Below are positions 3,786 through 25,692 of a DNA stretch of 34,958 bases, in pieces; within the stretch, counting starts at the first letter, position 1, and each line of letters begins with the position of its first letter. Both the position numbers and the translations under genes were made by a program. Source of the stretch: Gammaproteobacteria bacterium. Its GTDB lineage: Bacteria > Pseudomonadota > Gammaproteobacteria > Thiomicrospirales > Thiomicrospiraceae. A model generated the notes under the pieces. The model was not told the DNA's origin. It did no database searches and worked only from the letters and a program-made list of their open reading frames with translations. The stretch lies in the NCBI GenBank assembly GCA_014763665.1, contig JACXUY010000015.1:1-34958 (forward strand). Reading direction: 5' to 3'.

Positions 3786-4838
3786 TTATTGCGATGTGAC
3801 GGCGTTTATTAAATGGGTTGCGGCCCTGTTCAGGGTTTCTGTCGATAAGTTGTCTAGTTTCAGTGTTTGAATGCGGCGCTCTACACCCAGCTGTTGTGTG
3901 CTTTTTTGGTAGAGTGGGTCGTAGTGACGGATGAGTAGGTCACGAATCAGTTCGTGATAATGGCCTCGATCAATCGCTTGCATCCAGTGGTTGAGTTGGC
4001 TCTGTCCATGTAGCGGCAGTAGGTAGTTCAGTTGTTTTTTGAGTCTGTCTGGGTGCAGAATGTATTCGGCATAATCTTGACAAAGATAGTCGATTCGGAT
4101 GTTCATCGGTGTTTGTACCAGCCACAGAGGTGAGCGACGAATGCTGGTCATGAGACTGTCTGGAAGGGAGATCAGACCAATTTTTTTGCTTTCGGATTCG
4201 ATAAAAATGGGTTGACTGGGGTCAAATTGGCTCAGTTGCGCTACCAGTTGCGAATCGAACCATTTTTGTGGTGGTTGTGCCCCCAGTTCCAAGCGACCTA
4301 AGACCGAACCACGGTGCTGAGCCAGATTTTCCAGGTCGAGAACCTGAGCCCCATGTTGTTTGAGCACAGAGAGTAGTCGTGTTTTTCCACTGCCTGTTTC
4401 GCCGCCGATGACTTGAAAGCGAAAAGAGGCAGGCAAGGTTTCGAGGGTTTGTATGACCAGCTTTCGGTAAGCCTTGTACCCGCCTTCGAGTTGATGAGCT
4501 TGCCAACCAATGGCACGCAAAATGGTGACCATGCTGCCTGAGCGATTGCCTCCTCGCCAGCAGTAAACCAAGGGTCGCCAAGATTTTGGGTGATGAAAGA
4601 AATGCTTTTCGATGTGTTCAGCAATGTTGCGAGCGGCATAGGCAGCCCCTTTCTTTTTGGCATCGAAGGCAGAGGTCTGTTTGTATAGGGTGCCGATTTC
4701 AATGCGTTGTTCGTCGTTGAGTGTGGGGGCATTGAGGGCGTTGGGAATGTGGTCGATCAGAAATTCTGCAGTGGTACGGGCGTCAATGATGCTGTCAAAT
4801 GACGTCAGTTGTGCTAAATTATTTATTTTGAATAACAT
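3786..4838 (-). CDS. selU: tRNA 2-selenouridine synthase
   Basis: SelU (MnmH/YbbB) replaces sulfur of 2-thiouridine at the wobble position of tRNAs for Lys, Glu and Gln with selenium from selenophosphate, via a geranylated intermediate. The 350-residue protein has the two expected parts: an N-terminal rhodanese domain with catalytic C93 in CWRGGNRSGS (93-102), and a C-terminal P-loop domain with GETGSGKT (146-153). Length is normal for the family. The start codon faces that of selD only 14 bases away, so the promoter of each gene must overlap the other's coding sequence or 5' end. The substrate link to selD is direct. Confidence 0.95.
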   Translation of the reverse strand: MLFKINNLAQLTSFDSIIDARTTAEFLIDHIPNALNAPTLNDEQRIEIGTLYKQTSAFDAKKKGAAYAARNIAEHIEKHFFHHPKSWRPLVYCWRGGNRSGSMVTILRAIGWQAHQLEGGYKAYRKLVIQTLETLPASFRFQVIGGETGSGKTRLLSVLKQHGAQVLDLENLAQHRGSVLGRLELGAQPPQKWFDSQLVAQLSQFDPSQPIFIESESKKIGLISLPDSLMTSIRRSPLWLVQTPMNIRIDYLCQDYAEYILHPDRLKKQLNYLLPLHGQSQLNHWMQAIDRGHYHELIRDLLIRHYDPLYQKSTQQLGVERRIQTLKLDNLSTETLNRAATHLINAVTSQ

Positions 4839-17298: not shown

Positions 17299-18273
17299 TT
17301 AAGCCGTTGGTGTTAGCCAATAGCTGCTTAGGTTCTTGCGGATATTGCTTAATGCTTCATCCGACAAGCCAATAACCAGACTGGCTTTTTTTGCTTGGTC
17401 GAGCAGCTCTTGCGATTGATAAGCCTGATAAACCAATTCACTGACCATGCTTTGCGCCAATAAGCCTGTGGCAATCATCAGACGCACTTCACTCGATTGA
17501 ATACATTCATAATGCACGTGATGATGATAAGCAATGGCGGTCAAAAAGAGTCGATCGGCGACATAGCGTTCATTTAACCCCCATTGGCGTGCTACCAACA
17601 CCCCTAGTTGATCGTGCGCAACAAAGTGTTGGCTTTCGTAGTGGTAAGCTGTTTGCGGTAAGCTGAGGCTTTGTTTGAGTGTCGACGCATAGGCATCACC
17701 GAAACTGCCAGCTAAAGCAAACATACCACCATGTAAATATAGACCGAATAAATAGGCCTTTTCTTGTGTCAGGGGGTGTTCTTGTGGTGGTAAGTAGCCG
17801 GCAATTTCAGCACAAGCATAAGCTGTTTGGGCAGCATAGCCAACAAGGTGTTTAATAAGTTGATCCGCACCGGCTAATTGCTTCATGCCATTCGCAAGGG
17901 CCAGCTGATAGAGTCGTTCAAAGCCGATTAGGTTAACGCATTGATGAATGCTGACAATATCAATTGGTCGTTTTAACTGACTCTGAAAGGCGGGCTGTCG
18001 CAGGGTGTGCAAAATATCACCACTGAGCAAGGGGTCTTGTTGAATAATGTGAACAATTTGTTGCAAATTGGGATTAGCTTGACGCACGCTTTTCGTGAGC
18101 AGCGTTAATGATTCTGGCAGTGCTGGAATGGTTAACTTACCACCAAGTCTGACGAGCTGAGCTTCATAGGTTGGTATGGTTAGAACTGCTTCTAGCGAAG
18201 TGCAGTCACTTGGCGGTTTGGGTAAGTGTCTTGCTGCCAAGTGAAGATGACCTGAGTGCAGATTAAGCGCCAT
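17299..18273 (-). CDS. HDOD domain protein (second copy)
   Basis: The 324-residue cytoplasmic protein has an HDOD domain from about residue 45 to 260 (LLSGDILHTLRQPAF, CVNLIGFERLYQLALA, EKAYLFGLYLHGGMF, DQLGVLVARQWGL). It parallels the protein at 2522-3478 block by block, so the two are paralogues that have diverged widely. The first ~40 residues are unlike the other copy. Its start codon lies inside the last 11 bases of the upstream SBP-GGDEF gene, so translation is very probably coupled and the two products are likely to work together. The conserved HD metal ligands are absent, as in all HDOD proteins. Confidence 0.88.
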   Translation of the reverse strand: MALNLHSGHLHLAARHLPKPPSDCTSLEAVLTIPTYEAQLVRLGGKLTIPALPESLTLLTKSVRQANPNLQQIVHIIQQDPLLSGDILHTLRQPAFQSQLKRPIDIVSIHQCVNLIGFERLYQLALANGMKQLAGADQLIKHLVGYAAQTAYACAEIAGYLPPQEHPLTQEKAYLFGLYLHGGMFALAGSFGDAYASTLKQSLSLPQTAYHYESQHFVAHDQLGVLVARQWGLNERYVADRLFLTAIAYHHHVHYECIQSSEVRLMIATGLLAQSMVSELVYQAYQSQELLDQAKKASLVIGLSDEALSNIRKNLSSYWLTPTA

Positions 18274-19573
18274 TAATTTTCACATCCTGATCAATGTCGT
18301 GGTGGTTTCGATCGAAAAACCAAATTTGGTTTTTGCCCTGCTGTTTGGCAATATACATGGCTTTATCCGCTTGTTGAATGAGGTTGATTTCGGAAAATTC
18401 TTGATCATAGTCACTGGGCGTGTAAAAGTCGACCCCAATACTGGCTGAAATGTTTACTGCTTCACCGTTAATTAGGAAAGGCTGATTGCACACAGCTAAT
18501 AGTTGGTCAAGTATGGGGTAGGCACTTTCTTGGCTCGTTAGATTGGTCATGACAGCGACAAACTCATCGCCACCAATGCGGGCAATGGTGCAATGCGAAC
18601 ACATCACTGTCAAGAAGCGGCTGCCCAGTTCGCTGAGCAGGCTATCTCCGGCATGATGCCCATAGGTGTCATTAACCGACTCGAAGCCATCCAAATCAAT
18701 AAAAACAATCGCCTGTTGCAATTGTCCACCTTGTTGACTCAGCAGTTGATGGTTACGAGTGAGACTGAGCAAGATAATGCCATGCAAGGCTTGTTTGGCT
18801 TCTTCAAAACTAAGATGTTTTCGGCTGGCAATACGATAAAGACTGTCATCGGGCTGTTGTTGTATCCGAGCGAGCATGGCAAAGTGTCCAGCTAAGAGAC
18901 TTTTGACACTATCCACATGGCTGGATAGCATGTCCGAGCGAATCGCTAATACGTCAAAAATGCGCTGTGGAAAGTCTTGACAAGAGTAGGCTATTTGGCC
19001 ACCCAATCGTTTGATTTTACTGGCGTAAGGTTCGTGGGTAATCAAGGCATCAATTTTATCTCTTTGCCAGGCCTCAATTTGACTATCACCCACAGGAACG
19101 GGATAGAGACGAAGCTTTTCTCGCGTCATGCCAACATGAACCAATAACAGATCTAACATTAGTTGACCGAATTGGTTGGCTTCAAAACCAATACGTTGAT
19201 TGGCTTGAATGAAGGGTGGTTGAGCTGGTTTATTTTTCACCAATACCACATCCGCACCAGCGGAAACGTCTAAAATGGCTACGATGGTCAGCGGAATACC
19301 CTGTTCTCGAATGCTGAGTACCTCATCTAGGTTAAAGGTTCCGCCATCGAGCAGTCCTTCTCGAAGGGGTATGATTTTTTCTGACGTATTGCTATATTTT
19401 TCTAACAGGATATTGCTAGGGAGTCGTCCTAGTTCTTCAAGCAAATAAAAGGTTTCATAGCCAATCCAGGGGTGAATGGCTAGACGCAAGTTAGCGCGAG
19501 ATTGGCAAGCTGCTAAAGCAGTACCCACAAAACCAAGTAGCAAGGATTGGAATAGACCCCGACGGCTCAACAT
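18263..19573 (-). CDS. Lipoprotein with NMT1/TauA-like solute-binding domain fused directly to a GGDEF domain
   Basis: The 436-residue protein starts with a twin-arginine-like lipoprotein signal (SRRGLF at 3-8; lipobox LAAC with C23). Residues about 27-285 are a periplasmic binding domain of the NitT/TauT/THI5 type (HPWIGYETFYLLEELG, DGGTFNLDEVL, DALITHEPYASKI). Its end (EEAKQALHGIILLSLTRN, then QLLSQQGGQ) runs straight into a GGDEF domain at residue 288 (IVFIDLDGFESVNDTYGHHAGD; GGDEF 334-338, intact; no RxxD site). There is no membrane helix between the parts and the usual DxLTxLxNR start of GGDEF is missing. If exported, the cyclase would be outside, away from GTP. An internal in-frame deletion of an SBP-TM-GGDEF ancestor is the simplest explanation. 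AAGG 8-9 bases before the ATG supports the start. Confidence 0.85.
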   Translation of the reverse strand: MLSRRGLFQSLLLGFVGTALAACQSRANLRLAIHPWIGYETFYLLEELGRLPSNILLEKYSNTSEKIIPLREGLLDGGTFNLDEVLSIREQGIPLTIVAILDVSAGADVVLVKNKPAQPPFIQANQRIGFEANQFGQLMLDLLLVHVGMTREKLRLYPVPVGDSQIEAWQRDKIDALITHEPYASKIKRLGGQIAYSCQDFPQRIFDVLAIRSDMLSSHVDSVKSLLAGHFAMLARIQQQPDDSLYRIASRKHLSFEEAKQALHGIILLSLTRNHQLLSQQGGQLQQAIVFIDLDGFESVNDTYGHHAGDSLLSELGSRFLTVMCSHCTIARIGGDEFVAVMTNLTSQESAYPILDQLLAVCNQPFLINGEAVNISASIGVDFYTPSDYDQEFSEINLIQQADKAMYIAKQQGKNQIWFFDRNHHDIDQDVKINGA

Positions 19574-19708
19574 GAATATACCTTTGCTTATGCTGATCGC
19601 TAGGACACAGATTCTACAAAATTTTTATAGAAAGCAACAGCTTTTATGAGGCATTAATCGTTAAGTCTGTTTAGCAATGAAGATGCGATGATGGTTAAGC
19701 GGCATTTC

Positions 19709-19802: not shown

Positions 19803-25692
<5,890 letters not shown>

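Follow-up and report, generated by a model that had tools for sequence, protein, structure and literature searches.

The 436-aa ORF at positions 18263..19573 on the minus strand of the window (the whole 34,958-nt stretch of Thiomicrospiraceae DNA that was analyzed) is a fusion of two genes, with residues 1-287 derived from a solute-binding protein (SBP) lipoprotein and residues 288-436 from the GGDEF domain of a membrane receptor. In a sister genome the two genes are separate, and the window lacks the DNA between two copies of a short repeat, with a reading frame that continues unbroken across the junction. We take this to be a deletion-born gene fusion accompanied by loss of the original function, a reading to which we assign a probability of about 0.82.

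The SBP-derived part (18713..19573, minus strand) begins with an RR-containing lipoprotein signal, has an NMT1/SsuA-like fold as judged from the structure model and Foldseek matches of the sister SBP, and shares 86% amino acid identity with the sister SBP. The sequence-only reading had proposed a lipobox ending at C23 and a NitT/TauT-like binding domain extending to about residue 285. The lipobox was borne out, with C23 invariant in the 18 aligned SBPs, and the domain is indeed that of an SBP, although the Pfam NMT1 match to residues 63-228 scored 20.4 bits, marginally below the cut-off of 20.5; the sister SBP scored above it. The window protein has both the lipobox Cys and the NMT1-type fold that mark NMT1/SsuA-like SBP lipoproteins and is short of the C-terminal 32 aa. 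An RR pair lies ahead of the lipobox in the signal peptides (window 19559-19564, minus strand), with R4 nearly invariant and R5 invariant among the aligned SBPs. This suggests Tat-exported lipoproteins.

The GGDEF-derived part (18266..18712, minus strand) is 89% identical in amino acids to the GGDEF domain of the sister's receptor. As had been read from the sequence, it retains an intact GGDEF motif (residues 334-338) and opens at the second conserved block, with AIVFIDLDGF at residue 288; the Pfam GGDEF match (E = 1.2e-30) correspondingly runs from profile position 23 onward. The first ~22 profile positions, including DxLTxLxNR and the first helix, are absent, leaving an incomplete GGDEF domain. 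The peptide SLTRNHQLL was considered as a worn-down DxLTxLxNR and rejected, since it is SBP sequence (SLARNRQLL in the sister SBP). The predicted lack of a transmembrane (TM) helix after the signal was likewise upheld by a hydropathy scan, in which the sole post-signal hydrophobic peak (residues 93-111, score 1.93) is also found in the sister's stand-alone SBP and coincides with a beta strand in the model. The same scan gave a strong peak at 319-337 (score 2.89) for the sister receptor, and the fusion protein has no such helix that would place its GGDEF part in the cytoplasm. The gene that follows, for an HDOD protein of 324 aa (17299..18273, minus strand), overlaps the fusion ORF by 11 bp, in agreement with the coupling noted earlier. 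On the other side of the fusion ORF lies a conserved syntenic flank, an ORF at 19803..24269 on the plus strand that we take to be gltB, encoding the glutamate synthase large chain.

The two-gene arrangement is seen in the sister genome, which belongs to the same genus and whose locus (L118) equals contig NCFI01000020.1 of 'Thiotrichales bacterium 35-46-9'. The gene order there is gltB, SBP, receptor, HDOD and PpiC, identical to that of the window apart from the fusion. The SBP lipoprotein is 322 aa long, counted from the equivalent start, and the 657-aa receptor combines a Phosphonate-bd domain (a PhnD-like periplasmic domain), a TM helix, PAS and GGDEF. Both genes are intact; they lie in different reading frames and share 4 bp (ATGA), and between receptor and HDOD the overlap is 11 bp, as in the window. 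In a search of relatives, fusion residues 1-292 matched one gene of the sister genome at 85% and residues 268-436 another at 80%, and in all genomes other than that of the window the SBP and GGDEF parts fell in different genes. The genes for SBP and receptor adjoin, unfused, in genome G003, in most other family members checked and in several genomes of other families. At most of the loci checked, the PhnD-like receptor gene comes after the SBP gene and often overlaps it by 4 bp, and the receptor outputs, where read, are GGDEF, GGDEF-EAL or, in one case, histidine kinase. Judged by this pattern of occurrence among relatives, the two-gene form is ancestral and the fusion, in the genomes searched, peculiar to this one. 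Neither 63 family genomes nor a sample of 369 genomes of the class yielded a second fused copy, and all other SBP-part matches in these genomes stop at or before query residue ~294. These searches, which gave no support for an old, conserved SBP-GGDEF architecture, make it hardly credible that the window protein belongs to such a lipoprotein family, and they agree with the earlier proposal of a recent deletion in that the junction did not recur in distant genomes. A long ORF (609 aa; L150 603-2432) was rejected as a candidate fused copy, as it consists of an NMT1 binding domain and an N-terminal extension of ~310 aa with no Pfam family match, and has no GGDEF.

Alignment of the window and sister DNA gave a single clean gap at this place, with the window matching both flanks, and the block that the sequence-only reading expected to find in close relatives is present in the sister. 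The gap ends there in exact copies of GCGATTGTT, at L118 3139-3147 in the SBP gene and 4767-4775 in the receptor gene, both of which read Ala-Ile-Val in their own frames; the window keeps one copy (18704..18712, minus strand). Measured on the sister, the gap spans 1,628 bp, which is not a multiple of three, and since the SBP and receptor genes are in different frames, a deletion of this length brings both into one frame. The fusion ORF has no internal stops. Thus, the earlier suggestion of an internal deletion at residues 285-288 holds, but the ancestor was two overlapping genes rather than one SBP-TM-GGDEF protein, and the segment was not an in-frame one. Its loss took away the gene boundary, 32 aa at the C-terminal end of the SBP, the entire PhnD-like domain, the TM helix, PAS and the GGDEF start with DVLTGLPNR. 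Because 9-bp repeats between the two sister genes are rare (16 position pairs among 1.9 million), the GCGATTGTT repeat is plausible as the cause of the deletion. Relocation of the segment within the genome was rejected, as a search of the window's own genome gave no match above 35% identity and the best matches were paralogues at 32-35%. These paralogues include two adjacent PhnD-domain receptors on another contig (C162; L138 2443-8227), one with a histidine kinase and receiver and the other with PAS-GGDEF-EAL; the two might compensate for the lost receptor.

Assembly could also produce such a join, if the true genome has both genes and they were connected by the assembler or by a chimeric read. 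The fusion was seen in one draft assembly of 238 contigs, the one genome of its species that was compared, and an orphan contig of 1.6 kb could have been dropped from it. However, the junction is internal to a 35-kb contig without gaps (no N), is in frame and falls at a 9-10-bp repeat, which is too short to confuse the usual assembly k-mers, and no copy of the missing segment occurs in the assembly. In addition, conserved sites on both sides of the junction are changed in the window only (T81N, S198C and P269L in the SBP part, K298E and R325C in the GGDEF part), which would be odd were both genes intact. The clearest of these lies ten residues past the junction, where K298E replaces the Lys of the FKxxND block with Glu; among the GGDEF domains of the fetched loci this position is Lys in 102 of 104 and Arg in 1, with Glu solely in the window. 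These changes point to relaxed constraint and speak against a misassembly, suggestively but short of proof, and we regard an artefact as unlikely. At the GGDEF inhibitory site RxxD (residues 325-328; 18590-18601, minus strand), the window reads CSHC and the sister RSQC, and the other aligned relatives keep the R and the D.

Substitution rates were compared between the window and the sister. The pairwise dN/dS is 0.058 for the SBP part and 0.082 for the GGDEF part, in an operon where values range from 0.058 to 0.092. Such low values are expected if most of the divergence between window and sister predates the deletion, as it may. Relative-rate tests on the SBP part gave ratios from 9:6 to 13:2 depending on the outgroup, which, with eight outgroups and no correction for multiple tests, are suggestive at most; tests on the GGDEF part and HDOD were not significant. 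The dS to the sister is 1.44 for the SBP part, where synonymous sites are near saturation, versus 0.34-0.67 in the neighbours, and an abrupt drop in identity to the sister occurs near 19700, a short way upstream of the SBP. The stretch 18713-19700 is possibly a recombined segment.

Collectively, these data suggest the following course of events. The ancestral operon encoded a lipoprotein SBP, a membrane receptor with PhnD-like, TM, PAS and GGDEF parts, and the HDOD protein. A loss of 1,628 bp, probably through recombination or replication slippage between the two 9-10-bp repeats (GCGATTGTT), then joined SBP codons 288-290 to receptor codons 509-511 through the common Ala-Ile-Val, with the frame kept by a one-in-three chance, such that translation still runs into HDOD. 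The signal of the SBP would still export the hybrid, and the SBP part would be left with neither its C-terminal end nor its receptor partner. A GGDEF domain outside the cytoplasm has no access to GTP. With a conserved signal that no TM helix follows, the GGDEF part is expected to be carried out of the cytoplasm and so to make no c-di-GMP. The alternative that the signal is unused and the protein acts in the cytoplasm, which had been raised from the sequence, is not favoured, as both the lipobox Cys and the paired Arg residues are conserved with those of stand-alone SBPs. The hybrid is probably an exported protein without cyclase activity whose coupling to HDOD is intact, and it probably performs the signalling job of neither parent. 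Loss of the cyclase function is very likely, and would be so even if the hybrid stayed inside, because the first helix, PAS and a near-invariant Lys are gone. The locus would then be a loss-of-function allele in early decay, which the unchanged HDOD overlap may explain being tolerated.

AlphaFold2 gave a confident model of the sister SBP (pLDDT 87), which resembles TauA and SsuA by Foldseek, and the deletion severs its last helix (283-299 in the sister model). The C-terminal end that was removed has the consensus LM...YLP, common to most relatives. In the model of the fusion both domain cores are kept, with most blocks above 90; the overall pTM of 0.61 and a hinge at 281-283 below 50 leave the relative arrangement of the domains undefined. 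The well-modelled cores, the low dN/dS and the open frame, with neither stop nor frameshift, count against a deletion-born fusion with loss of function. The open frame and the modelled cores, with the retained GGDEF motif and HDOD overlap, would be expected of a working, selected fusion, a cytoplasmic or membrane-associated cyclase or c-di-GMP/GTP binder under the control of the SBP domain. A precedent for adaptive relocalisation of a cyclase is the spontaneous fusion that Farr et al. reportedly described in P. fluorescens in 2017, in which the cyclase is placed behind another protein, is said to move to the membrane while remaining cytoplasmic, and gains activity; the study is listed in PMC10333796. 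In contrast, the hybrid here is predicted to leave the cytoplasm and is without the GGDEF start. Given also the retained export signal without a TM helix, the missing DxLTxLxNR and first helix, K298E at a near-invariant site, the truncated SBP C-terminus and the single occurrence, we consider a working fusion quite improbable. We find it slightly harder still to believe that selection keeps an exported or transiently cytoplasmic hybrid with a new role, for example as an SBP-gated GTP/c-di-GMP binder or as a cyclase acting with HDOD. If true, this would be neofunctionalisation of a sensor, brought about in nature by a deletion.

A deletion-born fusion with loss of the original function fits a known kind of event, of which the window would be an isolated example. 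In the fusions reported across bacteria by Kaul et al. (2026 preprint, PMC12803068), deletion of inter-gene DNA yields a single ORF with the 5´ part of one gene and the 3´ part of another, often with loss of ancestral catalytic motifs. The window likewise has 5´ and 3´ parts of two genes that are intact and separate in relatives, with 1,628 bp missing and unrelocated and an ORF continuous over the junction. It differs in two respects: the partners are neighbours in one operon, run in the same direction and probably acted together, and both domains are still recognisable. Nothing on PhnD-type cyclases or on fusion of adjacent operon genes was found in the literature searched. As a natural case from a non-model organism, with the direction of change clearly set, the locus illustrates how a short-repeat deletion can merge the genes of a two-gene sensory operon into a single hybrid.

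The ancestral operon may be compared with NspS-MbaA of Vibrio cholerae, in which a periplasmic binding protein is encoded beside a membrane GGDEF(-EAL) receptor (PMC8967002). In the sister and other relatives, a separate SBP and a membrane GGDEF receptor are similarly encoded together. ScrABC of V. parahaemolyticus likewise pairs such a binding protein with a membrane GGDEF(-EAL) receptor. By this analogy, a mode of action like that of NspS-MbaA is plausible for the ancestral operon, although we do not class it as a member because its SBP is NMT1/SsuA-like and its receptor has a PhnD-like domain of its own; the window, having lost the receptor, no longer encodes such a pair. Most likely, the intact pair worked in this way, with the ligand-loaded SBP setting the membrane cyclase, and the hybrid protein marks the loss of this one c-di-GMP input.

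The locus also draws attention to the pairing of an NMT1-type lipoprotein with a PhnD-like receptor having GGDEF, GGDEF-EAL or histidine kinase output, for which no description was found in the literature searched. A lipoprotein SBP gene lies directly ahead of a PhnD-like receptor gene in the sister (L118 2278-5216) and at L119-L124, L039 and L139-L153, in the family and in other families; at L153 the receptor output is a histidine kinase with receiver and Hpt. From these gene neighbourhoods, the pair looks like a widespread two-protein sensor.
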